A DNA stretch of 64,000 nucleotides. Origin: Chitinophagales bacterium. Its GTDB lineage: Bacteria; Bacteroidota; Bacteroidia; Chitinophagales; LD1. Of this stretch, positions 12,719 to 42,132 are shown piece by piece. The translations under genes were made by a program, and so were the position numbers. Within the stretch, counting starts at the first letter, position 1. Each line of letters opens with the position of its first letter. Below the pieces are notes generated by a model. It had not been told where the DNA came from. It saw nothing but the letters and a program-made list of their open reading frames with translations, and did not search any database. The stretch spans positions 62,001-126,000 of the forward strand of contig JAEUUZ010000051.1 in assembly GCA_016786765.1 (NCBI GenBank), in the 5' to 3' direction.

Positions 12719-13768
12719 TTATTGGAGATTTTCTTTTAGTGCTTTTTTACGTCTACTGTATTCTCCAAACGAAATCATTCGTTGTTGCTCTTCATCCCAC
12801 AAATTGGCAAAAACAGTTTTAAAACTTTGTAGCAATGTGATTTGATTCACATGTTTTTCAAACAGTGGATTTTCGCGATGGCATTTCGGCAAATTATAAA
12901 ACGGAATTGTTGGACTTAAATGATGAATATGGTGGTAGCCAATATTTCCTGTAAGCCAATGCAAGGCGCTCGGCAAATTATAGAACGTACTTCCCTTAAT
13001 GGCCGCTACCACGTAATTCCAATTGTTTTTTCCGCTCTTATAGATAGTTTCGTACTGATGTTGAATGTAGAAAAACCATAACGCATAGGTGCCGAAGAAA
13101 AACAAATTCACGAACTGTACTACCAAAAACTTTTTAGCGCCTATGAAATATCCCAACAACGCATAAATAGCAACAAAAGCAACATTACTTATTGTGACAT
13201 TGCTGCGTACTTTTTTAAAGTAATCGGTATTCAGTAATGCTAGTCTATTGTAGATTACCACATAGATAAAACCGCCTATAGTAAAGAGATAGAAAGGATT
13301 TCTATACACTCTATACCAAATTCTTTGTGGCTTACTCATAGCAGCATATTCTTTCACCGACTTACAATCGATATCGCCAATATCGCTGTACTCGATTTGA
13401 GCATTATGTGCATGGTGGAAATCGTGCGACTTCGCCCAATACTTGTAAGGAATAATAGTGCACACGCTGCAAATAGAGCCCAGAATATTATTAAACAGCG
13501 AACTTGACGTAAAAGAACGATGTCCGCAATCGTGTTGAATAATGAAAATTCGACCTAATAGAAACCCATTAAACATCCCGATAAGAATGGTAAAGAAGAC
13601 TGAAAAATCAAACAAGTAGAACTGCAACACCCATAAGGCTATGTAAAAAGTGAAACTGTTCACCACTTGTACAATGGCTTTTTTATAGCTTGGCACCTGA
13701 TATTTCTTAATCATACTGTGCCAATTTTTAAAATCGCTCAGAACTTCGTTATAGGTCTCTTGTGTCAT
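12719..13768 (-). CDS. Membrane fatty acid desaturase
   Basis: 349 residues with about four to six membrane helices and the three histidine boxes of di-iron desaturases: HDCGH (79-83), HDFHHAH (115-121) and HHIHH (279-283). It inserts double bonds into acyl chains, probably delta-12/omega-type on membrane lipids, using O2 and an electron donor. The GDID region after box two and the NLPSALHWLTGNIGYHHIHH block fit Bacteroidota desaturases often annotated as fatty acid desaturase family. The gene is first in the minus-strand unit running to lptC. Position specificity cannot be assigned from sequence. Confidence 0.92.
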   Translation of the reverse strand: MTQETYNEVLSDFKNWHSMIKKYQVPSYKKAIVQVVNSFTFYIALWVLQFYLFDFSVFFTILIGMFNGFLLGRIFIIQHDCGHRSFTSSSLFNNILGSICSVCTIIPYKYWAKSHDFHHAHNAQIEYSDIGDIDCKSVKEYAAMSKPQRIWYRVYRNPFYLFTIGGFIYVVIYNRLALLNTDYFKKVRSNVTISNVAFVAIYALLGYFIGAKKFLVVQFVNLFFFGTYALWFFYIQHQYETIYKSGKNNWNYVVAAIKGSTFYNLPSALHWLTGNIGYHHIHHLSPTIPFYNLPKCHRENPLFEKHVNQITLLQSFKTVFANLWDEEQQRMISFGEYSRRKKALKENLQ

Positions 13769-25472: not shown

Positions 25473-26864
25473 TTAATAAACCGGGGCCATAAAATTAGTC
25501 TTCACTTTGTCAATCATCTTATCTCCGGCAAATACACCAATTTCCACCTGTGTTTTACGTTTCGTTAATTCATTTTTCGGAATCTGTACAAAGAACACTC
25601 CATCGCCAATACTTTCTTTCATCACTTCTAAATCTTTACCTACCATTTTAATATTAGCCGAGTTAGACGACAATACTTTCAAATGTAATTGGAAGTCGTT
25701 ATAGGTTTTGTTTACCAACTTAATGTTATACAAATTACTTACCGTATCTTTTCCTTGCATCTGATACAACTGCCCTTGTGCACGCATAATAGTTGTAGAA
25801 ATTTCTTTTCTGCTGAACAACAACACTGTTAATACACCTATAAGCACGGTCAATACTGCAGAATAAGCCATAATACGCGGAGTGAATGTCCATTTTTCTT
25901 TTTGCGCGATATTGGTTTCAGAAGCATAACGAATCAATCCTTTTTCGAAATTGAATTTCTCCATCACCGAATCACAGGCATCAATACACGCTGTACAAGC
26001 CACACACTCCATTTGTGTACCGTTGCGGATATCGATACCGGTAGGACAAACCTTTACGCAATCGCCACAATCCACACAATCTCCTGCTGTTCGTTCTTCA
26101 TGACGATTGAAACGTGCACGCTTCTCTCCTCTTAAATAATCGTAAGCCACAACTATAGAATGCTTATCGAGCAACACCCCTTGTAAACGGCCATACGGAC
26201 AAACAATAATGCAAGCCTGTTCGCGGAACCATAGATATACAAAAGAGAAAATTGCAGTAAAAATAACAAGCGGAGCAAAAGCCGCGATGTGTTTGGTGAT
26301 ACCTTCGCTGATATAGAGTACCACATTATCCATCCCAATCAGATAAGCCAAAAAGTAATGGGCTATCACAAACGAAACCAAAATAAAAGCAAGAACTTTA
26401 CCTCCGCGCTTCAGTATCTTTTCGGTATCCCAAGGTTGGGCAGAAAGTCTGCGTTGTTTTTCGCCATCCCCTTCGATCCAGTATTCGATTTTTCGGAATA
26501 CCATTTCCATAAAAATGGTTTGCGGACAAACCCATCCGCAAAACAATCGTCCGAAGACTACAGTAAAGAGTACGATGAACACCATAAAGGTGAGCATACC
26601 GAGCACAAAGAGAAAGAAATCTTGTGGCCAAAATATCTTTCCGAAAAGAATGAACTTCCGCTCAAAAATGTTGAACAAGAAGAGCGGATGTCCATTCATC
26701 TTTATCCATGGCAACACCGCAAACACAGCTAAATAAACCCAGCTGGCATAAGAGCGCCAATTATAGAACTTTCCTACCGGACGTTTAGGGTAAATCCAAT
26801 GGCGCTTACCATCTTTTTCTACCGTACCAATGGAGTCGCGAAACGACTCGTTTTTCTCAGACAT
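25473..26864 (-). CDS. ccoG: Cytochrome c oxidase accessory protein CcoG (FixG/RdxA)
   Basis: 463 residues with five or so membrane helices, an NapH-like polyferredoxin core with CGWVCPQTIFME and ACIIVCPYGRLQG, and two ferredoxin-type cluster motifs at about 255-295 (CVDCGDCVKVCPTGID and CVACTACIDACD). A C-terminal Ig-like FixG domain (about 350-460) faces the periplasm. CcoG-type proteins reduce copper(II) for cbb3 oxidase assembly. It lies 3 bp downstream of ccoP on the minus strand. All cysteines expected for two 4Fe-4S clusters are visible. Confidence 0.95.
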   Translation of the reverse strand: MSEKNESFRDSIGTVEKDGKRHWIYPKRPVGKFYNWRSYASWVYLAVFAVLPWIKMNGHPLFLFNIFERKFILFGKIFWPQDFFLFVLGMLTFMVFIVLFTVVFGRLFCGWVCPQTIFMEMVFRKIEYWIEGDGEKQRRLSAQPWDTEKILKRGGKVLAFILVSFVIAHYFLAYLIGMDNVVLYISEGITKHIAAFAPLVIFTAIFSFVYLWFREQACIIVCPYGRLQGVLLDKHSIVVAYDYLRGEKRARFNRHEERTAGDCVDCGDCVKVCPTGIDIRNGTQMECVACTACIDACDSVMEKFNFEKGLIRYASETNIAQKEKWTFTPRIMAYSAVLTVLIGVLTVLLFSRKEISTTIMRAQGQLYQMQGKDTVSNLYNIKLVNKTYNDFQLHLKVLSSNSANIKMVGKDLEVMKESIGDGVFFVQIPKNELTKRKTQVEIGVFAGDKMIDKVKTNFMAPVY

Positions 26865-26867
26865 AAC

Positions 26868-28016
26868 TTATTTTTTAGCAAGATCCTTCGCTGTTGTATC
26901 TACTACTGCTGTTGCTGTATCTACTACAGCTTTTGTACTATCAGCACCCGCAGTAGCACCTTCAATAAACTCTTCGCCTTGTGGAGCTTTAGCATTTGCA
27001 GGGTTTGTTCCTGCTAAGCTTTTAATGTAACTCGCTACGTTTTTCATCTGCACAGGCGACAACTCAGCTTCCCAAGATTTCATCCCTTTTGCAGGCCATC
27101 CCACTTTCACTGTTTTGTAGATAGAAGTCATATCGCCACCGTGTAACCAAAACTTATCGGTTAAGTTTGGACCAACATTTCCTTCACCTGCATTACCATG
27201 ACATGCTGCACAATTCGACTTATAAATAGTAGCACCATCAGCAATTCCGCTCGCATCAGCCATAGTTACATTGCTTTCATCTACTTTAGAGGCCATTGTT
27301 TTAGCAATCTCTGCCTTCTCGATTTTAGCTAATTCCATTTCACGCTCATATGCAGGAATACTTAATTCGCCATCTCCTAAGTGATAATAGCCTAAATATA
27401 AAATCGACCAAACAATTGAAACATAGAAACTGTATTTCCACCAAGGCGGAAGGTTGTTGTCCAATTCGTGGATACCATCGTACTCGTGATCCATTTGGAT
27501 ATCTTTCTCTTTTTCGATAGCCACAGATGCGTTGATATTATCCCAAAATTTAGGCATTGTCATAATTGCACCTAATGGCTTATCCGCGTCTATAACTTCA
27601 ATCTTGCGTAAGAAACCCGATAACTTCATACCAAAGAAAACAATAACCAATACTTCAAATCCAATTCCGGCAGCAAACAACCAGGCGGTCATGGCGCTAA
27701 TGGGTTGATACATTACCTCCGTTTTGAATGGCGCAGCCGCAGCATCTTGAGCGAACATACTACCTCCCAAAAACAGCATCGGCAAAAGCAACATGGTAAT
27801 CTTTGAAATATTTTTGGTAACTACTTTCAAGTACAATTTTGAAAGTACGAATATGGCAATCAACAAGCCAAACATAATGGCGAGCAAAATCCATATCAAT
27901 GGGTGTGTTCGTTCTTCAACGATAACTTTTACACCCGCTGCATCCTGTGCGCTTAATTGCTGAAAGCAACTCACTAGGAAGGACACAAACAAACTATAAA
28001 CTATTTTCCTTTTCAT
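26868..28016 (-). CDS. ccoP: cbb3-type cytochrome c oxidase subunit III, mono-heme CcoP
   Basis: 382 residues: a signal-like N-terminus, two or three membrane helices (about 38-60, 73-90, 108-130), a typical CcoP segment DHEYDGIHELDNNLPPWW (about 176-193) with a following helix, one heme c motif CAACH (269-273) in SNCAACHGNAGEGNVGPNLTD, and an Ala/Thr/Val-rich tail. Proteobacterial CcoP usually has two heme c sites; only one is here, common in Bacteroidota. It passes electrons to the catalytic subunit. The extra N-terminal region (1-135) is not part of classical CcoP. The upstream gene is the small CcoQ-like subunit, 78 bp away. Confidence 0.92.
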   Translation of the reverse strand: MKRKIVYSLFVSFLVSCFQQLSAQDAAGVKVIVEERTHPLIWILLAIMFGLLIAIFVLSKLYLKVVTKNISKITMLLLPMLFLGGSMFAQDAAAAPFKTEVMYQPISAMTAWLFAAGIGFEVLVIVFFGMKLSGFLRKIEVIDADKPLGAIMTMPKFWDNINASVAIEKEKDIQMDHEYDGIHELDNNLPPWWKYSFYVSIVWSILYLGYYHLGDGELSIPAYEREMELAKIEKAEIAKTMASKVDESNVTMADASGIADGATIYKSNCAACHGNAGEGNVGPNLTDKFWLHGGDMTSIYKTVKVGWPAKGMKSWEAELSPVQMKNVASYIKSLAGTNPANAKAPQGEEFIEGATAGADSTKAVVDTATAVVDTTAKDLAKK

Positions 28017-28265: not shown

Positions 28266-30395
28266 TTATTTTGTTTGTTGAGTTAATTGACCCTTCACTT
28301 TGATGTCGGTTCCCAATCGTTGCAAATAGGCAATCACCGCAATAATTTCACGATCTGCGCTAATTTTGATACCGTCTTTCGCTAAATCTGCTTGAATGCC
28401 TTCTGCTTGTTTTTTCACATCCTCATTAGCAATTTTATCGTAGCCTTTAGGATAAGGGACACCTAAAGTTTGCATCGCTTTAATTTTTGAAGCCGTGTAA
28501 TCCAAATCCACCACCTTTGTTAATAAGAATGGATATGCAGGCATAATCGAACCCGGAGACATACTTGTAGGGTCTTCCATGTGGTTAAAGTGCCATGAGT
28601 TAGGGTATTTACTTCCTTCGCGTTGTAAATCCGGACCGGTACGTTTAGAACCCCACTGGAATGGGTGATCGTAAACAAATTCTCCGGCTTTAGAATATTC
28701 TCCGTAACGTTCTGTTTCATTTCTGAACGGACGAATCATTTGCGAGTGACAAGTGTAGCAACCTTCGCGGATATAAATATCACGACCGTGTAACTCTAAC
28801 GGAGTATAAGGTTTAACCGAAGCAATAGTTGGTACGTTAGACTCGATTAAGAATGTTGGAATAAACTCAACTATACCTCCAATCAATACCATTACTAAAG
28901 CCAATACTAAGAATTGAATTGGACGTTTTTCAATCCAACGGTGCCAGTAGCCATCGCTGTGTTCTTCTTGTGCCGATAAAGCTGGAGCTTCAGCAGCTTC
29001 TTCCGCTAAGAATGTACCTTGCATTGCCGTTTTGAATAAATTATATGCACCTATCAATACCCCTACGAAGTACAATGTTCCACCCACAATACGGATATAG
29101 TACATTGGTAAGATAGAAGTGATGGTTTCCAAGAAGTTAGGGTATTTCAACACACCTTCAGCTGTGAATTGTTTCCACATAGCCGCTTGTGTAAATCCTG
29201 CCCAATACAATGGAATAGCATAGAATAAGATACCCAATGTACCAATCCAGAAGTGGATGTTCGCTAATTTTTTGCTAAACAAGTTCGTTTGATACATTCT
29301 AGGAATCAACCAATACAATACACTGAAGGTTAAGAAACCGTTCCATCCTAAAGCGCCTACGTGAACGTGAGCGATAGTCCAGTCAGTATAGTGAGAGATA
29401 GCGTTAACCGCTTTCACCGATAATAATGGTCCTTCGAAAGTAGCCATACCGTATGCAGTAACGGCAACCACCATAAATTTCAAAACAACATCGTCACGTA
29501 CTTTATCCCATGCACCTCTCAAGGTTAACAATCCGTTCAACATACCACCCCAAGATGGCATAATCAACATCACAGAGAATACCGTTCCTAAAGATTGTGC
29601 CCAATCCGGCAACGAAGTGTACAACAAGTGGTGAGGTCCTGCCCAGATATATAAGAAAATCAAAGCCCAGAAGTGGATAATCGATAAACGATAAGAATAT
29701 ACCGGACGATTAGCCGCCTTTGGCAAGAAGTAATACATCAAACCTAAGTAAGGCGTAGTTAAGAAGAACGCCACCGCGTTGTGCCCGTACCACCACTGAA
29801 TCAAAGCATCCTGAACACCTGCGTATAAAGAATAGCTATGGAACAACGAAGTTGGAATCGCCAACGAGTTCACAATGTGCAACATCGCAACCGTAACCCA
29901 TGTAGCAATGTAGAACCAAATCGCAACATATAAGTGTCGTTCTCTTCTGTTCAATATGGTCATGAACATATTCAAACCAAACACTACCCATATCAAGGTA
30001 ATCATGATATCGATTGGCCAAATCAACTCTGCATACTCTTTACCTTCTGTTAATCCTAACGGTAAAGAAACTGCAGCACAAACAATGATTAATTGCCATC
30101 CCCAAAAGTGGATTTTGCTCAACGTGTCGCTCCACATTCTTGTTTTTAGCAATCGTTGTAGGGAGTAATAAACACCCATAAAAATACCGTTACCCACAAA
30201 CGCAAAAATCACCGCGTTGGTGTGTAAAGGTCTTAAACGTCCGAATGTCACCCATTCGATAAAGTTGAGTGGAGGATATACCATCTGAATCGCGATGATG
30301 ATACCAACCAGCATACCCACAATTCCAAAAATTACAGACGCTAGTCCGAAATTCCTGACCGTGGTGTTGTCGTAGCTAAATTTTTCAGTTGTCAT
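28266..30395 (-). CDS. ccoNO: cbb3-type cytochrome c oxidase, fused CcoN-CcoO
   Basis: 709 residues from ATG 30395 (a TTG 30 nt upstream is unlikely). The CcoN part (about 1-470) has 12 or more helices with the heme-copper ligands: WWYGHNAVAFF (His205, copper B), WAGPHHLLY (His255, His256) and AHVHVGALGWNGF (His343, His345, hemes). The CcoO part (about 495-709) has one helix and the heme c motif in REGCYTCHSQMIRPF (546-550). The fusion joins two normally separate subunits and is common in Bacteroidota. It reduces O2 to water with high affinity at low oxygen. Its start overlaps ccoS by 11 bp. Confidence 0.96.
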   Translation of the reverse strand: MTTEKFSYDNTTVRNFGLASVIFGIVGMLVGIIIAIQMVYPPLNFIEWVTFGRLRPLHTNAVIFAFVGNGIFMGVYYSLQRLLKTRMWSDTLSKIHFWGWQLIIVCAAVSLPLGLTEGKEYAELIWPIDIMITLIWVVFGLNMFMTILNRRERHLYVAIWFYIATWVTVAMLHIVNSLAIPTSLFHSYSLYAGVQDALIQWWYGHNAVAFFLTTPYLGLMYYFLPKAANRPVYSYRLSIIHFWALIFLYIWAGPHHLLYTSLPDWAQSLGTVFSVMLIMPSWGGMLNGLLTLRGAWDKVRDDVVLKFMVVAVTAYGMATFEGPLLSVKAVNAISHYTDWTIAHVHVGALGWNGFLTFSVLYWLIPRMYQTNLFSKKLANIHFWIGTLGILFYAIPLYWAGFTQAAMWKQFTAEGVLKYPNFLETITSILPMYYIRIVGGTLYFVGVLIGAYNLFKTAMQGTFLAEEAAEAPALSAQEEHSDGYWHRWIEKRPIQFLVLALVMVLIGGIVEFIPTFLIESNVPTIASVKPYTPLELHGRDIYIREGCYTCHSQMIRPFRNETERYGEYSKAGEFVYDHPFQWGSKRTGPDLQREGSKYPNSWHFNHMEDPTSMSPGSIMPAYPFLLTKVVDLDYTASKIKAMQTLGVPYPKGYDKIANEDVKKQAEGIQADLAKDGIKISADREIIAVIAYLQRLGTDIKVKGQLTQQTK

Positions 30396-30552
30396 TTTCT
30401 TGATTTTGTTGTTTAGGATTATCAAATAAAATTCGCATAGAAGGAGTTACCGTATCATCGTACTGCCCCGATTTCACCGACCATAAAAAAGCGAAAAGGA
30501 ATAGCAACGCTACTATCAGACTCGCTCCCACCATGATAAATATGATTTGCAT
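30385..30552 (-). CDS. ccoS: cbb3 oxidase assembly protein CcoS, 55 aa
   Basis: The minus strand from ATG 30552 to TGA 30385 encodes 55 residues: one membrane helix (about 3-23, IIFIMVGASLIVALLFLFAF) followed directly by LWSVKSGQYDD and a short polar tail. F-W-x-V/A-x-x-G-Q-Y/F-D-D is the CcoS signature. CcoS is required for inserting cofactors into cbb3 oxidase. It is the first gene of the ccoS-NO-Q-P-G-H unit and overlaps ccoNO by 11 bp. A promoter with a consensus -7 element and a palindromic activator box lie directly upstream. Confidence 0.95.
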   Translation of the reverse strand: MQIIFIMVGASLIVALLFLFAFLWSVKSGQYDDTVTPSMRILFDNPKQQNQENDN

Positions 30553-30568
30553 ATACTTTATTAGGCGT

Positions 30569-30634
30569 CAAAGGTATTTTTCGCACTAAGTTGAAACGAT
30601 GAGGGTTATCAATGAAAAACATGACTATTGTCAT
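30569..30634 (-). promoter_or_regulatory. Promoter of the ccoS-NO-Q-P unit: -7 element plus TGAC-N4-GTCA box
   Basis: On the minus strand, TACCTTTG at 30569-30576 matches the Bacteroidota -7 consensus TAnnTTTG, 17 nt before the ccoS ATG. At 30621-30634 lies the perfect palindrome ATGAC-tatt-GTCAT, centred about 65 nt upstream of the predicted transcription start. No good TTTG -33 element is present, which fits an activator-dependent promoter. The box has the spacing of CRP/FNR-family sites. Three further perfect copies occur in this window. Confidence 0.7.
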
Positions 30635-33160: not shown

Positions 33161-35575
33161 TTAATCCTTCTTCTTGAACATCATATTCCCCAACACTAAC
33201 GAACTCAAGCTCGTGAAGGATATGATGGTGACTGAGCTAATCGGCATAAGTATGGCCGCCACAATGGGCGACATGGTGCCTTTCACTGCGAAGGCGATGC
33301 CAATGAGGTTATAAATCAATGAAATTAGGAAACTGGCTTTGATGATGTTCATGGCTAATTTCGCAAACCGAAACATTTTATCAATGCGTACAAATTCTTG
33401 GCTGCCCAAAATGCCATCGCAAGCGGGCGAGAAATTATTTACATCATCGGTAATGGCAATGCCCACATCGGCTTGCTTCAAAGCACCGGCATCGTTGAGG
33501 CCGTCACCAATCATCATCACGTTTTTGCCATTGGCTTGCAACTGCTGAATAAACTGCAATTTGTTCTCGGGCTTCTGATTGAAAATCATATTGCCTTCGG
33601 CAACGTAGCGTTTCAAATAACTTTTTTCTGCATCGTTATCACCCGATAAAATATAGATAGAATAGTGCTGTTTTAAGGTCTCAAACAAAGTGTCGAAGCC
33701 CTTGCGGTACTGGTGTTTCTGCTCCACATAACCCGCACTTTTTCCGTTCACCGATACAAAAACAACCGAAGCTAAACTCTGATCGGCAGTGGCTTCAACG
33801 CCAACAAAACCGGCACTTCCCATCTTTACAAAGTGGTTATTGATCCAACCGCTCACACCTTTGCCTACTTCCTCGGTAAACTCTTCAACAGTATATTTTG
33901 TTAGGTCTGTTTTGCCTTTCAACTCTTCCGCAATTCTTCTGCTCAAGGGGTGAATGGAGTTTTGCGCCAAGGTATTCACATAGGCCGTTGCTTCCGGAAA
34001 TTCATCTGAAAAATGAAAAGTAACAGCCGTTTCAGAGGTATCGGTTAAGGTGCCTGTTTTATCAAAAACCAATGTATCGACTTGTGCTATGTTTTCAACC
34101 GTAAGCGGATTTTTAATGTACATGCTGTTCTGCGAAAAAATGCGCAACACATTGCCCAAGGTAAATGGCGAAGAGAGCGCCAAAGCACACGGACAAGTAA
34201 TAATCAACACCGATGTAAAGGCATTCAAAGCCAGATGAATATCGGTGTTCCAATGAAAAACCATAGCCGCAATGGCAATGATAATCACAGCCGGGGTAAA
34301 ATAACTACTAAAGCGCGAAGCCAATGAGGATGCATGTTTCGAAGTGTCTTTCTGAAACGCATCGCTGTTCCACAATTGCGTGAGGTAACTTTGCGAAACT
34401 TCTTTTACAATTTCAATCACCATGTTGCTACCGGTGTGTTTTCCGCCTGCATACACAAAACTCCCATTCGGTGCAATTTCAGGGGTAGATTCTCCGGTTA
34501 CGAAACTGTAATCGATATTCCCTTCGCCTTTTACAATCACGGCATCGGCAGGAATCAACTCTTGATTACGAATCACAATCTGGTCGCCTACTTTCAAATT
34601 ACTGAGGGGCAACGACACTTCTTTTTTATCTTTCAACAAGGTGACTGCTATAGGAAAATACGATTTGTAATCGCGTTCAAACGAAATGAAATCGTAGGTT
34701 TTATTTTGGAACCATCGTCCAATGAGCATCAACATAACTAAGCTGGCGAGTGTGTCCATGTAGCCCACTCCAGTTTGCGAAAAAATTTCGAAACTGCTAC
34801 GAATAAACATGGCTATAATGCCCAATACAATAGGAATGTCCATGTTCATGGTACGCTGACGAACGGCATTCCAAGCTGATTGAAAAAACTCGGTGGCACT
34901 GTAGAACATCACCGGCAAGGCGAGCATAAAATTTAAGTACGCAAAAAAGTGGCGGTAATGATCTTCGATAATGCCCTTCAATCCAAAATACTCTGGAAAG
35001 CTAAAGAGCATAATATTGCCGAAGCAGAAAAATGCCACTCCAATTTTATAGTAATATCTGCGAATGTGATTGGAGCGATCTTGACTAACTTCTGTATCAA
35101 AGGTAATCGATGGCGGATAGCCTATTTTATCTAACAGTTCCGCTACTTTGCGGAGTGTGGTTTTACTGTTATCGAAAGTGATATATACTTCTTTCAGCGA
35201 AAAGTTAACGGTAGATTTTACAATGCTTGGATCAATTTTATAGAGATTTTCCAACAACCATAAACAGGCACTGCAATGAATGGCGGGCAAATAAAATTCA
35301 ACTTTTGTGATGGTGGTATTTTTGAACCGAATCAATTTTGCCGCCACAGCCTCATCATCTAAATAATCGTAGCGCAATTCTGCGCCTTTTTTCGATACTC
35401 CTTTTTTTAGTTCTTGTATATCGTAAAATTCGCAGAGGTTATTTTCTTGCAAAATTTGAAATACTGCTTTACAGCCATCACAACAAAAGGGTTTCTCGTT
35501 ATATAAAATAAGACTACCATCGCAGTTTTCACCACAATGGTAGCACGTACTTTTTTCTAATATACTTTTTGTCAT
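33161..35575 (-). CDS. ccoI: Copper-translocating P-type ATPase CcoI (FixI)
   Basis: 804 residues. An N-terminal Cys-rich metal site (CYHCGENC, Cys11-Cys18; FCCDGCKAVF, about 30-39) precedes a heavy-metal-associated domain with HCSAC (Cys101, Cys104), eight membrane helices with ITCPCALALSSP (CPC) and the catalytic DKTGTLTDTS, TGES and MIGDGLNDAGAL motifs. It exports copper from the cytoplasm for cbb3 oxidase assembly. The Cys-rich N-terminal extension is typical of FixI/CcoI-type ATPases. It is 27 bp downstream of the DUF2892-like gene, and cco genes resume about 2.6 kb further on. Confidence 0.94.
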   Translation of the reverse strand: MTKSILEKSTCYHCGENCDGSLILYNEKPFCCDGCKAVFQILQENNLCEFYDIQELKKGVSKKGAELRYDYLDDEAVAAKLIRFKNTTITKVEFYLPAIHCSACLWLLENLYKIDPSIVKSTVNFSLKEVYITFDNSKTTLRKVAELLDKIGYPPSITFDTEVSQDRSNHIRRYYYKIGVAFFCFGNIMLFSFPEYFGLKGIIEDHYRHFFAYLNFMLALPVMFYSATEFFQSAWNAVRQRTMNMDIPIVLGIIAMFIRSSFEIFSQTGVGYMDTLASLVMLMLIGRWFQNKTYDFISFERDYKSYFPIAVTLLKDKKEVSLPLSNLKVGDQIVIRNQELIPADAVIVKGEGNIDYSFVTGESTPEIAPNGSFVYAGGKHTGSNMVIEIVKEVSQSYLTQLWNSDAFQKDTSKHASSLASRFSSYFTPAVIIIAIAAMVFHWNTDIHLALNAFTSVLIITCPCALALSSPFTLGNVLRIFSQNSMYIKNPLTVENIAQVDTLVFDKTGTLTDTSETAVTFHFSDEFPEATAYVNTLAQNSIHPLSRRIAEELKGKTDLTKYTVEEFTEEVGKGVSGWINNHFVKMGSAGFVGVEATADQSLASVVFVSVNGKSAGYVEQKHQYRKGFDTLFETLKQHYSIYILSGDNDAEKSYLKRYVAEGNMIFNQKPENKLQFIQQLQANGKNVMMIGDGLNDAGALKQADVGIAITDDVNNFSPACDGILGSQEFVRIDKMFRFAKLAMNIIKASFLISLIYNLIGIAFAVKGTMSPIVAAILMPISSVTIISFTSLSSLVLGNMMFKKKD

Positions 35576-35810: not shown

Positions 35811-35854
35811 CAAATCTAAAATCCACTACCAGGCGAAATAATGACGGGCGTCAA
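35811..35854 (-). promoter_or_regulatory. Promoter of the DUF2892-ccoI unit: -7 element plus TGAC-N4-GTCA box
   Basis: On the minus strand TAGATTTG at 35811-35818 is a perfect TAnnTTTG -7 element. The palindrome ATGAC-gggc-GTCAA (35841-35854) is centred about 42 nt upstream of the predicted transcription start, the class II position typical for CRP/FNR activators. The same box precedes ccoS, which would co-regulate the copper pump with the oxidase. Confidence 0.7.
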
Positions 35855-35876
35855 CCCAAAAACTGATTTCCGTCAC

Positions 35877-36333: not shown

Positions 36334-37176
36334 TTATACGTGAGCAATAAATAAAGGCACATCAAAATCTTTCAAAATTTTGTTGGCTAAACTTTGATGG
36401 AAAAAGCGAGAGAAAGCGGTGCGTGCATACGAACCCATTACTACTACAACATCTCCGTTTGTAGCTTTTAGGGTTTCTTCAATCATTACTTCCGGTGAAC
36501 CTTTCACTACATCGAAGGCAATGTTTATGAATTTTCGTTTCGCAAAATCTTTGATGTTTTTGTTGTTCGACAAATGCGATGAAGCCGCCTTTTCCGGTTT
36601 CACTTGCACTAATTGTGTTTTCTTTTCGCAGCAATGCGGCAATACATACGAGAACATTTTTATAGCGTAAATGCTTGATGGCATGTTATCGTACGCCAAG
36701 AAAACGCTGTTGATTTCCGTATATTTTTGCGGCACAATTAACACCGGGCAGTGCGATTCCGCCAACAAATCTTTCAAAAAGCCCGATGGACTTTCTTTTT
36801 CGAAAGCGTAGAAACTTACTTTTCTGTCGATAATCAACAAATCGGCAAAATTCGATTCTGCCAATAGTTCTTGCAAAGGAACGCCTTTGTCCTTATGCAC
36901 TTCAAACTTCACGCCTGCTTTCTCGCAAGCGCGCACAAACAATTTAATGTTCTTGTTTACTTTTTCTTCGTCTTTTGATTCGCTTTTCAGTAAGGTTGGC
37001 ACATCTAAATACGGCACCTGCGTGGCGAATGGCGCATACAAACCCGGAGGCAAGGTTAAATCTTGAATAAACACACCTACCAGCTTGGCATCGGTTTGCT
37101 TAGCTAAATGAATGGCATATTGCACAGTTCCTTCCGAATACACTCTTCCATCAAATGCAGCAATAAAACGTTTCAT
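36334..37176 (-). CDS. Tandem universal stress protein (two UspA domains)
   Basis: 280 residues from ATG 37176 (an upstream start 42 nt earlier lacks family support). First Usp domain about 1-143: MKRFIAAFDGRVYSEG opening, GVFIQDLTLP, LLIIDRK and CPVLIVPQKYT. Second domain about 147-280 with VFLAYDNMPSSIYAIKMF and the ending VVVVMGSYARTAFSRFFH, which carries the G-S-x-x-R-x2-x-S-R-F-F like nucleotide-loop pattern. Tandem Usp proteins are made under starvation, stress or low oxygen. The weak motif TTGAC-AAAA-ATCAT at 37280 might link it to the neighbouring regulon but overlaps a terminator. Confidence 0.88.
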   Translation of the reverse strand: MKRFIAAFDGRVYSEGTVQYAIHLAKQTDAKLVGVFIQDLTLPPGLYAPFATQVPYLDVPTLLKSESKDEEKVNKNIKLFVRACEKAGVKFEVHKDKGVPLQELLAESNFADLLIIDRKVSFYAFEKESPSGFLKDLLAESHCPVLIVPQKYTEINSVFLAYDNMPSSIYAIKMFSYVLPHCCEKKTQLVQVKPEKAASSHLSNNKNIKDFAKRKFINIAFDVVKGSPEVMIEETLKATNGDVVVVMGSYARTAFSRFFHQSLANKILKDFDVPLFIAHV

Positions 37177-37287
37177 AATTTGTTGTTTAAAATTACAGCG
37201 AAAATGTTCGCTAATCATTTATAATCACAAAGTTAGCGCATGGACTACTGCCAGTTACTGACCTTACTTATACGAAACATTGACAAA

Positions 37288-37314
37288 AATCATGTTTTAC
37301 GTAGAAACATGATT
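37288..37314 (-). terminator. Perfect 10-bp inverted repeat, probable terminator of the MBL gene
   Basis: AATCATGTTT (37288-37297) and AAACATGATT (37305-37314) are perfect complements around a 7-nt spacer. On the minus strand the hairpin begins 13 nt after the MBL-fold stop codon and is followed by TTTTTG, so an AT-rich intrinsic terminator is likely. An operator is the alternative. Confidence 0.6.
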
Positions 37315-37326
37315 CCTAAACAAATA

Positions 37327-38730
37327 CTACAACTGAAACTCTTCTTCCAGCACCGGCATTTTTACATCCTTAAAGCCTGCACGTTCTAGTATTATTTTAT
37401 AGTGCAACATGGCCTCTTCATCACCATGCACCAAGAAAACGGTTTTCACTTTATCGGCCTGCTGACATTTTAAATAGCTCACCATTTCTTCGTAATCGGC
37501 ATGAGCGCTGTACGATTCAAGGGATTCAATGCGTGCCTGCACATCATAGAAATCGCCAAAAATCTTCACCGATTTGTTTCCGGCTTTCAATCTTCCGCCC
37601 AGCGAATCAGGCGTGCAATAACCCACTAGCAAAATAGTATTGCGCTTATCGGTGATATTATTTTTGATGTGATGCTTTATCCGTCCGGCTTCTGCCATGC
37701 CCGATGCAGAAATAATAACACAGGGTTCTTTCGAAGCACTCAATTCTTTCGAATCGTTAACCTCCACTACATAATGAATATCGTTGAATATGAAAGGTTC
37801 GCCATCAGTACGTTTCATGTAATCCAAAATCTCTGCATTGAACAACTCGGCATGTTTGCGCATAATTTCGGTTGTGTGTACGCTCAACGGACTATCGATG
37901 AACACTTTGATGTGCGGAATCTTACCCGCATTTTTCATGCGATCGAGGGCGTAAATCAGTTCTTGCGTTCTATCTAAACTAAAAGCGGGAATTACCACAT
38001 TTCCCTTTTGTTCTACGCATGTTTTTTGGATGATATCGAAGAGCATTTCTTCGGTATTACCATAATTCGGATGTAATCGATCGCCATACGTAGATTCGCT
38101 AATAATGTAATCGGCTTGACGGAAGACTTCCGGAGCAGGCAATATTTTATCGAACGGACGACCTACATCACCCGTGAATGTTAGCTTTACAACACCTCCT
38201 TTCCCATCTTTCTCATCAATGTGTACAGCCGCACTACCTAAAATATGTCCGGCATCAGTAAAAGTAAAGGAGGTATTATCATCTAATTCAACCACTTGAT
38301 GATAAGGCACTTTCACGAACTGTGACAAAATTTGTGTTACATCTTCAGCCGAATACAAAGGTTCAATTTCTTCTTCATGGCGTTTGACTCTGCGTTTGTT
38401 CACATGCATCAAATCGTGTTCTTGAATGTGTGCGCTATCCATCAACATTACTTCACACAAATCGTAAGTAGCCGGAGTGGCATACACTTGGCCTTTAAAT
38501 CCTTCTTTTGCTAATTTCGGCAACAAGCCCGAATGATCTACATGCGCATGACTCAAAATTACTGCATCAATAGTTTTCGGGTCGAAGGTGAAATTAAGAT
38601 TGAGGGAAGGCAATTCACTTTTTCCTTGATATAAGCCACAATCGAGTAAAATCTTATTTCCAATCCTGGTAGTAACGAGATGCTTACTTCCTGTAACCGT
38701 ATGCGCAGCTCCTAAAATCTTAAGTTTCAT
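37327..38730 (-). CDS. MBL-fold beta-CASP RNA-processing-type hydrolase
   Basis: 467 residues. A metallo-beta-lactamase domain with SHAHVDHSG (His61, His63, Asp65, His66), a beta-CASP domain (about 245-370), and the C-terminal RNA-specificity region with SYSAHADYEEMVSYL and VFLVHGDEEAM. Relatives include RNA/DNA-cleaving enzymes such as YSH1/CPSF and archaeal homologues. Motifs A to C are all present. Context (USP, regulator, cbb3 oxidase) is like many anaerobic or microaerobic stress regulons, suggesting RNA turnover under low oxygen. Its promoter region shares a palindrome with the divergent operon at 38857. Confidence 0.9.
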   Translation of the reverse strand: MKLKILGAAHTVTGSKHLVTTRIGNKILLDCGLYQGKSELPSLNLNFTFDPKTIDAVILSHAHVDHSGLLPKLAKEGFKGQVYATPATYDLCEVMLMDSAHIQEHDLMHVNKRRVKRHEEEIEPLYSAEDVTQILSQFVKVPYHQVVELDDNTSFTFTDAGHILGSAAVHIDEKDGKGGVVKLTFTGDVGRPFDKILPAPEVFRQADYIISESTYGDRLHPNYGNTEEMLFDIIQKTCVEQKGNVVIPAFSLDRTQELIYALDRMKNAGKIPHIKVFIDSPLSVHTTEIMRKHAELFNAEILDYMKRTDGEPFIFNDIHYVVEVNDSKELSASKEPCVIISASGMAEAGRIKHHIKNNITDKRNTILLVGYCTPDSLGGRLKAGNKSVKIFGDFYDVQARIESLESYSAHADYEEMVSYLKCQQADKVKTVFLVHGDEEAMLHYKIILERAGFKDVKMPVLEEEFQL

Positions 38731-38782: not shown

Positions 38783-38796
38783 ATGACATAAGTCAT
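38783..38796. promoter_or_regulatory. Shared TGAC-N4-GTCA box between MBL gene and sensor/regulator operon
   Basis: ATGAC-ataa-GTCAT is a perfect palindrome in the 126-bp divergent region 38731-38856, centred 59 nt from the MBL start codon and 67 nt from the start of the operon encoding the 122-aa protein, histidine kinase and receiver-CRP regulator. On the minus strand TAAAATTG (38752-38759) is a fair -7 element about 37 nt from the box centre. The position allows control of both units and autoregulation. Confidence 0.65.
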
Positions 38797-38856: not shown

Positions 38857-39225
38857 ATGAATACCATGAAACCAGTATTAATGCTTTTGCTCCTTTTGAT
38901 TGCTCCATTTGTAATGAATGCGCAAACAAAAGTGAAACCCTATTGCTATGTAGAGATTTTATTTAGCGATGTAGTAGAGGAGAAAGAATGTAGCCAAATG
39001 CGAAAAATATTAGCCACTGATTGTCAGGACATATTAGTGTTTGCCGAAGAACAGATCGTATATTGTGCCATTAAATCCAAAACTGATTTAGTATCCTTTG
39101 ATGCCAGTCTGCGAAAAAAAATTGGTGTTTTTGCTATCTATCCTATCCACATCCATTATTCGTTTACCCCATTCAATATTGGGCAATGTGTATATCCGGA
39201 GTGTTTCCCAAGCGGTGAAAAGTAG
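38857..39225 (+). CDS. Secreted Cys-rich protein, 122 aa, unknown
   Basis: 122 residues with a signal peptide (ending VMNAQ, about 23). The mature part has seven Cys (PYC, EKEC, DCQ, VYC, QCV, PEC), an odd number, plus a beta-alpha-beta pattern. No family recognised. It is the first gene of the operon with the histidine kinase (39 bp gap) and the receiver-CRP regulator, and has the palindromic box 61 nt upstream. A periplasmic sensor partner or redox protein is possible, but nothing beyond context supports it. Alternative start ATG 38866 would also give a complete signal. Confidence 0.65.
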   Translation: MNTMKPVLMLLLLLIAPFVMNAQTKVKPYCYVEILFSDVVEEKECSQMRKILATDCQDILVFAEEQIVYCAIKSKTDLVSFDASLRKKIGVFAIYPIHIHYSFTPFNIGQCVYPECFPSGEK

Positions 39226-39263: not shown

Positions 39264-40565
39264 ATGCCGATTAATCTTGTCATTCTCTTTCTTTTAGTAC
39301 TCGTTATTGGCGTTTTTGCTTATTATTTTTTTAGAGTGAGCGCAGTAAAAGAGAACTACGAATTAGAGCAATTCAAAGCCCTTTTTGAATTTGCCACAGA
39401 GGGCATAATTATCGCCAATAAAGAAGGGCGAATTGTTTTGGCCAACCCCAAAGCATTGCAACAATTTGGTTATACAGCACATGAATTAGCCAACAAAGAA
39501 ATAGAAATATTAATTCCGCAAAAATCGAAACATAAGCATGTTCACGACCGCGAGGTATTTACCCAGAAGCCATCCCATCGGTCCATGGGGGCTATGCGCG
39601 ATTTGTTTGCCTTGCGAAAAGACGGAACCGTTTTTCCGGTGGAAGTTAGTTTAAGTCATTATAAGATTGGCGAAACACTGTTTGTTATTGCGTTCGTCAT
39701 CGACATTACCATTCGAAAACAAAACGAAAAAGAACTACAGGCAAAATCGGCTACGATTCGCGAAATGAATGTTTCGTTGGAAACTAAAGTGCAACAGCGA
39801 ACAATGATTCTGCGTGAAACACTCACTGAATTAGAAAAATCGAAAGAAGAGTTAGCTTCTGCACTGGAATCGGAAAAAGAAGTAAACAGCTTAAAAACGA
39901 GATTTATCTCCATGGCATCGCATGAATTTAGAACACCTTTAAGTTCCATTCTTTCATCCGCAACACTTATCTCAAAATACCCTAAGGAAGAGGATTTCGA
40001 GAAAAGAGAGAAACATGTGAAACGGATTAAAGACTCAGTTAAAAATCTTACAGATATTTTGGAAGACTTTCTATCAATAGGAAAATTAGAGGACGGACGA
40101 ATTTCGTTGCGTTATGAAGAGACCAATATTCGTGAGTTTATCGAAACTATCTGCAACGAGAAACAAGAAGATTTAGCCAAGGAAAACCAAAAGATTGTTT
40201 TCCAATTTGAAGGGAACGAATGGGCATTATGCGATAAATATATTTTGCGTAATATGATGATTAACCTCATCAGTAATGCCATAAAATTTTCGCCTTTGGA
40301 TGGAACTATAGAAGTGAGTATTGCTAGTGGAGCGCAAGAAATTATACTGTGCGTAAAAGACCAAGGCATTGGCATTTCAAAAGAAGACCAAGAGCATTTG
40401 TTTGAACGCTTTTTCCGTGGGCAAAATGCATCAAATATTCAAGGGACCGGACTAGGCTTACACATTGTTTCCCGATATTTGAATTTGCTCAACGGTACAA
40501 TAGACGTGCAAAGTGAAATTGAAAAAGGAACCACATTTTGTGTGCATTTACCGCAAAGACATTAA
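39264..40565 (+). CDS. PAS-domain sensor histidine kinase
   Basis: 433 residues: one N-terminal membrane helix (about 4-23), a PAS domain (about 37-155) with ATEGIIIANKEGRIVLANPK, LFALRKDGTVFPVEVSLS and FVIDIT, a coiled coil (about 156-210), HisKA with SMASHEFRTPLSS (His220), and HATPase with MINLISNAIKFS (N box), VKDQGIGIS (G1), FERFFRG (F) and GTGLGLHIV (G2). The PAS pattern resembles the FixL-type region, but I cannot see a heme ligand with certainty. It should phosphorylate the regulator encoded 9 bp downstream. Signal: oxygen, redox or a small molecule; open. Confidence 0.9.
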   Translation: MPINLVILFLLVLVIGVFAYYFFRVSAVKENYELEQFKALFEFATEGIIIANKEGRIVLANPKALQQFGYTAHELANKEIEILIPQKSKHKHVHDREVFTQKPSHRSMGAMRDLFALRKDGTVFPVEVSLSHYKIGETLFVIAFVIDITIRKQNEKELQAKSATIREMNVSLETKVQQRTMILRETLTELEKSKEELASALESEKEVNSLKTRFISMASHEFRTPLSSILSSATLISKYPKEEDFEKREKHVKRIKDSVKNLTDILEDFLSIGKLEDGRISLRYEETNIREFIETICNEKQEDLAKENQKIVFQFEGNEWALCDKYILRNMMINLISNAIKFSPLDGTIEVSIASGAQEIILCVKDQGIGISKEDQEHLFERFFRGQNASNIQGTGLGLHIVSRYLNLLNGTIDVQSEIEKGTTFCVHLPQRH

Positions 40566-40574
40566 ATTTAAGCT

Positions 40575-41636
40575 ATGAAGAAGATACTACTTATTGAAGA
40601 CAATCGAGACGTAAGAGAAAACACGGCAGAGATTTTAGAATTGGCGAATTATACTGTTGTGACAGCCGAGAACGGTAAAATAGGTGTTGAGTTGGCACAA
40701 AAAGAAAATCCGGATTTAATTATTTGCGATATTATGATGCCGGTGTTAGACGGATACGGTGTTTTGCATTTATTGAGCAAAAACCCAGAGCTTTCTGCCA
40801 TTCCTTTAATTTTTCTTTCTGCAAAATCGGAAAGAGCAGATGTGCGAAGAGGTATGGATATGGGTGCCGATGACTATATTACCAAGCCTTTCGAAGAAAG
40901 TGAATTGTTGAATGCAGTGGAATCGCGCTTGCGCAAAGCAGAATTTTTACGCAAGGAAATATCTTCTTCATCTGAAGGTATGCGCGAGTTATTATCACTC
41001 GCAAAGTCGTTTGAAGAACTAAAATCGTTGCCCGATAATTACGATACTTCACATTTCAAGAAAAAAGAAAACGTATATCGCGAAGGACAGCGTGTCAACT
41101 TCCTCTTATTGGTTGTAGAAGGAAAAGTAAAAACGTTCAAAACCAGTGAAGACGGTAAAGAACTGATTACCGGAATCTACACCAAAGGTGAATTTATTGG
41201 CTACTCCTACATTTTAGGCGACATGCAAACCTTGCAGGAATCGTGTGAAGCATTGGAGAACGCTGAAGTATGCTTTATTCCGAAAAATGATTTCATGCAG
41301 TTGGTTACTGCCAATACTTCGGTAGCGAAAAAGTTTATATCCATGTTGGCGAAAAACACTTTAGAGCGCGAAGAGCAATTGTTGAAATTAGCCTACAACT
41401 CGCTACGAAAAAGAATTGCAGACGGCTTGCTAGAAGTATATTCTAAATTTAAAGTGAAGCAAGAAGATAAACCGGCTATTCAGTTTTCGAGAGAAGATTT
41501 GGCGCAAGTAGTGGGCACAGCCACAGAATCGCTCATTCGTACACTTAGTGATTTCAAGCACGAAAAGTTAATCGAAATTAAAGAGGGTAAAATTTCTATT
41601 CTCGAAGAAGAAAAACTTAGAAATTTGGCTAATTAA
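40575..41636 (+). CDS. Receiver / cNMP-domain / CRP-type HTH hybrid response regulator
   Basis: 353 residues in three parts: a receiver (1-120) with acceptor Asp52 (ICDIMMPVLDG) and Lys104 (YITKPFE); a cyclic-nucleotide-like domain (about 150-270) with VEGKVKTFKTSEDGKELITGIYTKGEFIG; and a CRP-family winged helix (about 300-345) in which the recognition helix reads VVGTATESLIRTLSDF. The Glu and Arg that contact G-C and G in CRP/FNR align with E and R here (TES..R), which fits a TGA core target. The gene follows the histidine kinase by 9 bp and ends 4 bp inside the convergent 137-aa gene. It probably controls the TGAC-N4-GTCA boxes. Confidence 0.88.
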   Translation: MKKILLIEDNRDVRENTAEILELANYTVVTAENGKIGVELAQKENPDLIICDIMMPVLDGYGVLHLLSKNPELSAIPLIFLSAKSERADVRRGMDMGADDYITKPFEESELLNAVESRLRKAEFLRKEISSSSEGMRELLSLAKSFEELKSLPDNYDTSHFKKKENVYREGQRVNFLLLVVEGKVKTFKTSEDGKELITGIYTKGEFIGYSYILGDMQTLQESCEALENAEVCFIPKNDFMQLVTANTSVAKKFISMLAKNTLEREEQLLKLAYNSLRKRIADGLLEVYSKFKVKQEDKPAIQFSREDLAQVVGTATESLIRTLSDFKHEKLIEIKEGKISILEEEKLRNLAN

Positions 41637-42046
41637 CGCCAAACATCGCGATCAGCCATATCCGCAGCGCTTTCATCGTTGCTTTTAGACGACAATTCTT
41701 GTCCTTCCTCATTCTGATGCGCTAATGTCCAAGAATCGGTGAGCGTAGTTTCTATCCATACATTTCCCGATTTCCGAAAAACCTGAGCGTGTAATCCAAA
41801 TTGTGTTTCCAAATCTTGTTCAATAGTAGACACAGTGGTTTCAGCAGAAAAACTGTATTCGGCTGCAGTTTCCGTATTTAGCAATTCGCTTAATGATGTA
41901 TCGTGACTTACCAAATAGCGCTTGGCAGAACCCTCCATATCATTGTGCTTTTTGCGAAAAAACTCTAACTTCAGAAATGGGAAAAATGAACTGAATTCCT
42001 TTTGTAAAGATGACAATTTGTGTTTGCTATTGATGTGGATTACCAT
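41633..42046 (-). CDS. Conserved hypothetical protein, 137 aa, with activator box upstream
   Basis: 137 residues, soluble and acidic. The start MVIHINSKHKLSSLQKEFSS and FPFLKLEFF look like a conserved small Bacteroidota family that I have no function for. The C-terminus is rich in Asp, Glu and Ser and probably flexible. The gene converges on the receiver-CRP gene (4-bp overlap) and has a perfect TGAC-N4-GTCA box 73-86 nt upstream of its ATG, so it belongs to the same proposed regulon as the cbb3 oxidase. Confidence 0.7.
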   Translation of the reverse strand: MVIHINSKHKLSSLQKEFSSFFPFLKLEFFRKKHNDMEGSAKRYLVSHDTSLSELLNTETAAEYSFSAETTVSTIEQDLETQFGLHAQVFRKSGNVWIETTLTDSWTLAHQNEEGQELSSKSNDESAADMADRDVWR

Positions 42047-42118: not shown

Positions 42119-42132
42119 ATGACTTTTGTCAT
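42119..42132 (-). promoter_or_regulatory. TGAC-N4-GTCA box upstream of the 137-aa gene
   Basis: ATGAC-tttt-GTCAT, a perfect palindrome, centred about 80 nt upstream of the ATG at 42046. A TATCTTTT at 42065-42072 (minus strand) is a weak -7 match, which would put the box near -67. The next gene on the other side ends here, so only the 137-aa gene can be its target. Confidence 0.6.

Follow-up and report, generated by a model that had tools for sequence, protein, structure and literature searches.

The window examined here, a 64,000-nucleotide stretch of a Chitinophagales genome (contig JAEUUZ010000051.1), carries a 433-aa sensor histidine kinase (39264-40565, plus strand) and, immediately behind it, a 353-aa response regulator (40575-41636, plus strand). 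The kinase starts with a hydrophobic transmembrane helix close to a PAS domain (residues 35-148), followed by HisKA (211-278, containing H220) and HATPase_c (326-432), the PAS, HisKA, and HATPase layout of FixL-type kinases. The regulator joins a receiver (Response_reg, 4-116, 1.6e-29) to a cNMP_binding domain (160-245) and an HTH_Crp_2 domain (280-351). D52, S82, and K104 of its receiver are conserved in all 81 aligned fused regulators from the listed relatives (T or S at position 82), and in the same 81 proteins E318 and R322 of the recognition helix, GTATESLIRTL, are invariant. In Crp helix-turn-helix domains the equivalent Glu and Arg contact the TGA half-site; with these residues and a cNMP-fold domain, the protein belongs to the Crp/FNR superfamily. 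AlphaFold models (mean pLDDT 86.6 for the regulator and 83.1 for the kinase) agree with the Pfam domains, and CRP and FNR chains are structural matches of the regulator model. A sequence-only reading of this DNA had described a receiver-cNMP-CRP regulator with an adjacent PAS kinase at 39264-41636, with the Glu and Arg retained, and both ORFs, their domains, and the two residues are as it said.

The kinase operon probably begins with a 122-aa ORF (38857-39225, plus strand) that lies directly 5' of the kinase with a gap of 38 nt; it matches no Pfam family, and tblastn did not find it in any of the 80 related loci listed. The genes that we regard as likely targets surround the pair, so that kinase, regulator, boxes, and candidate targets do occur together in the window as proposed. 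On the minus strand, these are a fused ccoN-ccoO gene for cbb3 oxidase subunits I and II (28266-30425), a ccoI-like heavy-metal P-type ATPase with a PF12156 metal-binding domain (33161-35575), a universal stress protein (usp, 36334-37218), an MBL/beta-CASP/RMMBL protein (mbl, 37327-38730), and a conserved 137-aa protein with no Pfam match (41633-42046). A ccoP-like cytochrome c subunit (26868-28016) and ccoG (25473-26864) lie on the same strand. The joined ccoN and ccoO sequences form a single 719-aa protein of the PRK14485 type.

A palindromic box in a fixed promoter geometry

The putative box of the regulator, TGAYN4RTCA, came from a scan that was not biased toward any motif: every palindromic 4-mer with spacers of 0-10 (about 2,800 patterns) was counted upstream of the kinase, ccoNO, ccoI, and mbl. 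The top three patterns were ATGA-N6-TCAT, TGAC-N4-GTCA, and TGAT-N4-ATCA, at about 1e-15 to 1e-17 uncorrected for the roughly 2,800 patterns; GTCA-N10-TGAC also surfaced and led to the tandem arrangement described below. Exact TGACN4GTCA occurs 13 times in the 3.62-Mb genome, four times inside 11.5 kb of the window (about 5e-5 by a rough binomial estimate), and the genome's only three exact copies of ATGACN4GTCAT (30621, 38783, and 42119) are all in the window. Matches to TGACN4GTCA with one mismatch are not enriched in the window and were not used, so the strength of the signal rests on perfect boxes and on promoter geometry. All p-values given here are descriptive, because the data had been viewed before thresholds were set for what counts as a strong box, a partner, or a free-standing relative.

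Spacing between boxes is close to rigid. Among 350 exact TGAYN4RTCA sites, 46 pairs lie at exactly 22 bp and four at 23 bp, with 0-2 pairs at any other spacing from 12 to 59, and four boxes of shuffled letters gave no pair at 22 bp. The distance from the start of a box to the start of the Bacteroidota promoter element TAnnTTTG is similarly constrained: in the window and the 76 listed loci, it is 35 bp for 37 boxes and 57 bp for 67, and counts do not exceed three outside 34-36 and 56-58 bp. At both 35 and 57 bp the count fell to zero when the -7 element was reversed or scrambled or when another box or spacer was used. A larger set of loci gave 68 and 84, respectively, compared with 0.55 expected. 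With the distal box as the anchor of a promoter alignment, each letter of the proximal TGA...TCA is kept in at least 56 of 67. Related loci in these counts are partly dependent on each other; the geometry nonetheless reflects more than DNA similarity, because the proteins of the flanking genes are only 53-64% identical. Since mapping in Flavobacterium places TAnnTTTG at -12 to -5 (PMC9723704), the boxes would be centred at -41.5 and -63.5.

A search of the whole genome for the composite box-N10-box-N23-TAnnTTTG, allowing up to three mismatches, returned six matches (none for the reversed control), and the best three, at ccoI (0 mismatches), ccoNO (1), and usp (2), are all in the window. All three are on the minus strand. 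The ccoNO promoter has a perfect distal box, TGACAATAGTCA (30622-30633), a proximal box matching 7 of 8 positions 22 bp away, TGATAACCCTCA (30600-30611), and the -7 element TACCTTTG (30569-30576); on the Flavobacterium mapping the two boxes are centred at -63.5 and -41.5. At ccoI, both the distal TGACGGAAATCA (35864-35875) and the proximal TGACGCCCGTCA (35842-35853) boxes are perfect, again 22 bp apart, with TAGATTTG (35811-35818) as the -7 element. Upstream of usp, a perfect distal box, TGATTTTTGTCA (37281-37292), is paired with a degenerate proximal one, TAAGTAAGGTCA (37259-37270; 6/8), ahead of TAACTTTG (37228-37235).

For the mbl gene, the 41633-42046 gene, and the kinase operon, a single good box is accompanied by an imperfect -7 element, and we regard these three as weaker members of the putative regulon for that reason. 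The box TGACAAAAGTCA upstream of the 41633-42046 gene (42120-42131, minus strand) lies 35 bp before TCTCTTTG. The box TGACATAAGTCA (38784-38795) is in the intergenic region between mbl and the divergent kinase operon, 36 bp before TAAAATTG in the direction of mbl and 58 bp before TTTCTTTG in the direction of the kinase operon, whose -7 element matches at 5/6. The kinase operon thus does carry the box of the oxidase units, as had been claimed, but shares it with mbl and has an imperfect -7 element. Autoregulation, which had been called likely on this basis, draws its support mainly from relatives, in which 14 canonical promoters directly precede the kinase.

The other genes directly behind canonical promoters in relatives are ccoNO (23), the 41633 family (10, each with its own promoter), and ccoI (8). 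Further clusters encode Usp-type proteins (14, 3, and 2, the group of two named by eye) and, by Pfam, Hsp20 (7), DoxX (6), D-2-hydroxyacid dehydrogenase (4), and cytochrome c (3). This promoter-linked set has the content that would be expected of a low-oxygen regulon, and the predicted regulon is wider than cco, as it takes in Usp, Hsp20, DoxX, and 2-hydroxyacid dehydrogenase in relatives. Two single sites may be recorded separately: one at L163 (genome C9:119131-119173), where a box is followed at 35 bp by a near -7 element ahead of a gene that reads by eye as PaaA-like, and a canonical promoter at 13306 on the minus strand of L078 with an ATP-cone and Mrr_cat nuclease-like protein directly behind it.

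The same layout bears on whether the regulator activates. It could instead be a repressor or a dual regulator, with distal and proximal boxes of opposite sense, and here the distal box is often stronger than the proximal one. However, both boxes lie clear of the -7 element and the start, and a centre at -41.5 is the class II activation position of CRP and FNR, so we judge repression or dual control improbable. The precedent for that alternative is fnrN of Rhizobium leguminosarum, which has two boxes that act in opposite senses (PMC7888657). Activation from both boxes is the reading that we carry forward.

Spread of the pair and a free-standing counterpart

At least 80 related loci with 53-64% identity, nearly all Bacteroidota by title, were found among 84,980 species genomes, and the 76 non-redundant loci among the matches listed are the basis of the counts in relatives. 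In 73 of these 76 listed loci the kinase is also present, mostly some tens of bases 5' of the regulator; the fused regulator occurs without an adjacent matching kinase at L042, L048, and L066. Among the same listed loci, the fetched flanks include cco genes in 31, an MBL gene in 12, and the small 41633 gene near the pair in 32, compared with 0-1 for control genes of the window (tolC, acrB, and others). The full-length fusion was found in 43 of 296 evenly drawn Bacteroidota genomes, a 44th match covering the Crp part alone. Co-occurrence of the fusion with ccoN had been suggested as a phylogenetic test; we dropped it as a specific signal because ccoN is common in the phylum. Five of the 43 fusion-bearing genomes have no strong ccoN match, and cco is therefore not the sole purpose of the pair.

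The tandem pattern follows the fusion, but imperfectly. Of the 43 genomes with the fusion, 28 have it, as do 10 of the 253 without (Fisher 3e-20; lists read by hand), and the reversed control gave 0 of 296. Inside the class, the counts are 28 of 43 compared with 4 of 30 (Fisher 9e-6). However, four genomes with free-standing FNR relatives alone (G273, G150, G017, and G271) have tandem or near-tandem boxes. Among genomes of the tool-assigned family f6 (f2 is a label of the same kind), those sampled with a fusion have 13 single canonical promoters (35 bp) and no tandem one, compared with 86 tandem and 22 single in the other fusion genomes (p 1.5e-8). The receiver is thus not what requires the tandem, and we abandoned the idea that it causes the arrangement and make no claim that receiver-receiver contacts do so. 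Lineage is the better explanation of the distribution, although it is not a clean divide, because the f6 genomes G025, G174, and G222, beyond the sample, do have tandem matches.

Genomes of the class without the fusion mostly have a Crp/FNR protein of 225-254 aa, often adjoining cco, with a recognition helix identical to that of the fused form. A strong free-standing relative (E < 1e-65) was counted by hand in 25 of 30 genomes without the fusion and 16 of 43 with it (Fisher 1e-4). The CxxC motif and the cysteine at the FNR C122 position are invariant in nine of nine aligned free-standing proteins; L126, of a wider set, lacks the CxxC. The Fe-S cysteines of FNR are C20-x2-C23, C29, and C122. 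In the fused proteins these cysteines are lost: none of the 81 aligned has a CxxC, and in 76 of 81 the linker (118-172) has no Cys at all. The residues that contact cAMP in CRP, E72 and R82, are also missing, their equivalents in the regulator being Y210 and L220 (Y/H in relatives); the E. coli CRP and FNR sequences were used solely to locate residues. In an unrooted tree of the shared module, all 43 fused rows fall on one side of a single branch (98/100), which is compatible with a single fusion event. In the genomes of L094, L096, L098, and L103, which have both forms, the free-standing FNR adjoins ccoI with a single box and the fused regulator is elsewhere. Genome G126 also has both, with the free-standing FNR at L133 and the fused protein at L132.

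That both forms coexist in some genomes, and that free-standing FNRs with the same helix adjoin cco with TGAYN4RTCA boxes in fusion-free genomes, would fit a regulator that is merely a neighbour of boxes used by another Crp/FNR protein. We hold this to be very improbable, as the one other HTH_Crp_2 gene of the present genome has a different helix, NMQREAATR, and, by hand count, 27 of 43 fusion genomes have no strong free-standing FNR, 20 of those 27 nevertheless having tandem boxes. That other gene (1495-2136 of L091, genome C45) adjoins genes for permease-like and rhodanese-like proteins, named by eye.

We read the two forms as alternative sensors exchanged on a common operator, with Fe-S cysteines in one and kinase plus receiver in the other; the kinase and fused regulator seem to take the place of the FNR that usually senses oxygen. 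Judging from sequence, the pair with its two-box promoter layout is widespread in Bacteroidota. A broader proposal, which we advance tentatively and would rate a little below even odds, is that a single low-oxygen regulon of Bacteroidota, whose tandem operator is rigid (-41.5 and -63.5, 22 bp), is served by two interchangeable regulators that share the DNA-binding helix, one an Fe-S FNR and the other an FNR fused to a receiver and driven by a heme-PAS kinase, and that the fused form arose once and displaced the Fe-S FNR in several lineages.

Input, proposed circuit, and relation to known systems

Sequence evidence on the input of the kinase comes from its PAS domain, which aligns to FixL without gaps over the stretch between the PAS proline and the RKDG motif and whose PDB matches are FixL, DosP, and one other kinase, S. 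meliloti FixL being the best (4e-12). H92 occupies the heme-His position of FixL and DosP, and R112 the position of the distal Arg (R220 in B. japonicum FixL). As a residue position, H92 is kept in 72 of 77 kinases of the listed relatives, and R112, present in the window kinase, in 18 of 77. The likeness to FixL that had been claimed for this PAS region is supported by the best match and the heme-His. A control PAS of the same genome, L152, also matches FixL yet has Tyr at the heme-His position; two other control PAS domains of this genome have no FixL match. Similarity to FixL alone is thus no proof of heme, and we dropped the argument from the best PDB match. A VIA-align search with the full kinase was set aside as uninformative on the PAS domain, because its matches were dominated by the kinase core.

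Binding of heme and sensing of O2 by the PAS domain are plausible. The same circuit might instead take an input other than O2 via heme, such as a quinone or redox signal, NO, or a flavin, or have no PAS ligand at all, in the manner of ArcB or RegB. The equally good FixL match of L152 with its Tyr, the poorly conserved distal Arg, and the transmembrane helix near the PAS domain all favor such an input. The His at the FixL/DosP position, however, is found not only in most listed kinases but also in the divergent kinases checked that have a PAS domain in the fetched stretch; the modeled helix 86-101 carries H92 as does the F helix of FixL; and the likely targets are cbb3 genes. We consider such an alternative input a substantial possibility, if somewhat less than an even one.

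Our main reading, to which we assign a probability of about 0.68, is that a two-component system controls by phosphorylation an FNR-type activator of ccoNO, ccoI, and usp. The sequence itself shows the domains, their conservation, the linkage, the boxes, the geometry, and the loss of the cysteines; from these we infer phosphotransfer, activation, a low-oxygen signal, and a heme ligand. Low oxygen, or an equivalent redox signal, would cause the PAS kinase to autophosphorylate on H220, and the phosphate would pass to D52 of the regulator. The phosphorylated dimer would bind TGAYN4RTCA through E318 and R322 of its Crp/FNR helix, and two dimers would occupy neighbouring positions centred at -41.5 and -63.5, on the same face of the DNA with two helical turns between them. 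There they would recruit the Bacteroidota housekeeping polymerase at TAnnTTTG and promote transcription of ccoNO, ccoI, and usp, and single or weaker sites would serve mbl, the 41633 gene, and the operon itself. The receiver would replace the presumed role of the Fe-S cysteines in the free-standing FNR relatives that use the same box.

Beyond the sequence-only reading, the analysis adds the 22-bp tandem, the fixed -41.5/-63.5 geometry, the cysteine-bearing free-standing counterpart, and the spread of the pair. For low-oxygen respiration in a large phylum, it puts forward a regulator, a box, and a promoter grammar in concrete, testable form. It also points to a natural experiment, in which the sensor would have been swapped, an Fe-S cluster for kinase and receiver, while the output helix and operator were kept, and to a structural question, namely whether two FNR-type dimers can touch each other and polymerase together. 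No report of this kinase-regulator system was found in the literature searched, most subscription papers being outside its scope.

The closest known systems are the rhizobial FixL-FixJ-FixK and hFixL-FxkR-FixK cascades, which have in common with the present one a FixL-like PAS kinase, an FNR-type box (TTGATN4ATCAA; PMC7888657), cbb3 oxidase and P-type ATPase targets, and clustered genes. They differ in that here the receiver and the Crp-type DNA-binding domain are in one protein, which leaves no intermediate gene-expression step, in that there is no NarL-type FixJ or FxkR, and in that the promoter is of the Bacteroidota type with tandem boxes. The description of the regulator as a fused FixJ and FixK is not supported, as its output module groups with the FNR-like regulators of Bacteroidota themselves and the output is HTH_Crp_2, unlike the NarL/GerE type of FixJ; FixK, for its part, is a stand-alone protein without the receiver found here at 4-116. 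FixK2-type Crp proteins, which have no sensor cofactor, resemble the fused regulator in having no Fe-S cysteine cluster and no cAMP contacts, but the latter has its own receiver and a cognate kinase. FNR and FnrN share with it the fold, the Glu and Arg of the recognition helix, and the TGA..TCA box; the CxxC and the C122 position of these proteins are kept by most of the free-standing relatives found next to cco in Bacteroidota, in contrast to the fused form, which has no CxxC and a receiver at its N terminus. OmpR-family regulators on direct repeats are likewise phosphorylation-controlled activators on adjacent sites, as we propose here, but the present regulator would use a Crp helix, with each full palindrome taken by a single dimer and the palindromes spaced by 22 bp. 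Rhizobia have one box that serves both a kinase path and the cysteine-bearing FnrN (PMC7888657), and what is seen in Bacteroidota looks analogous, the kinase path being apparently shortened to one regulator.
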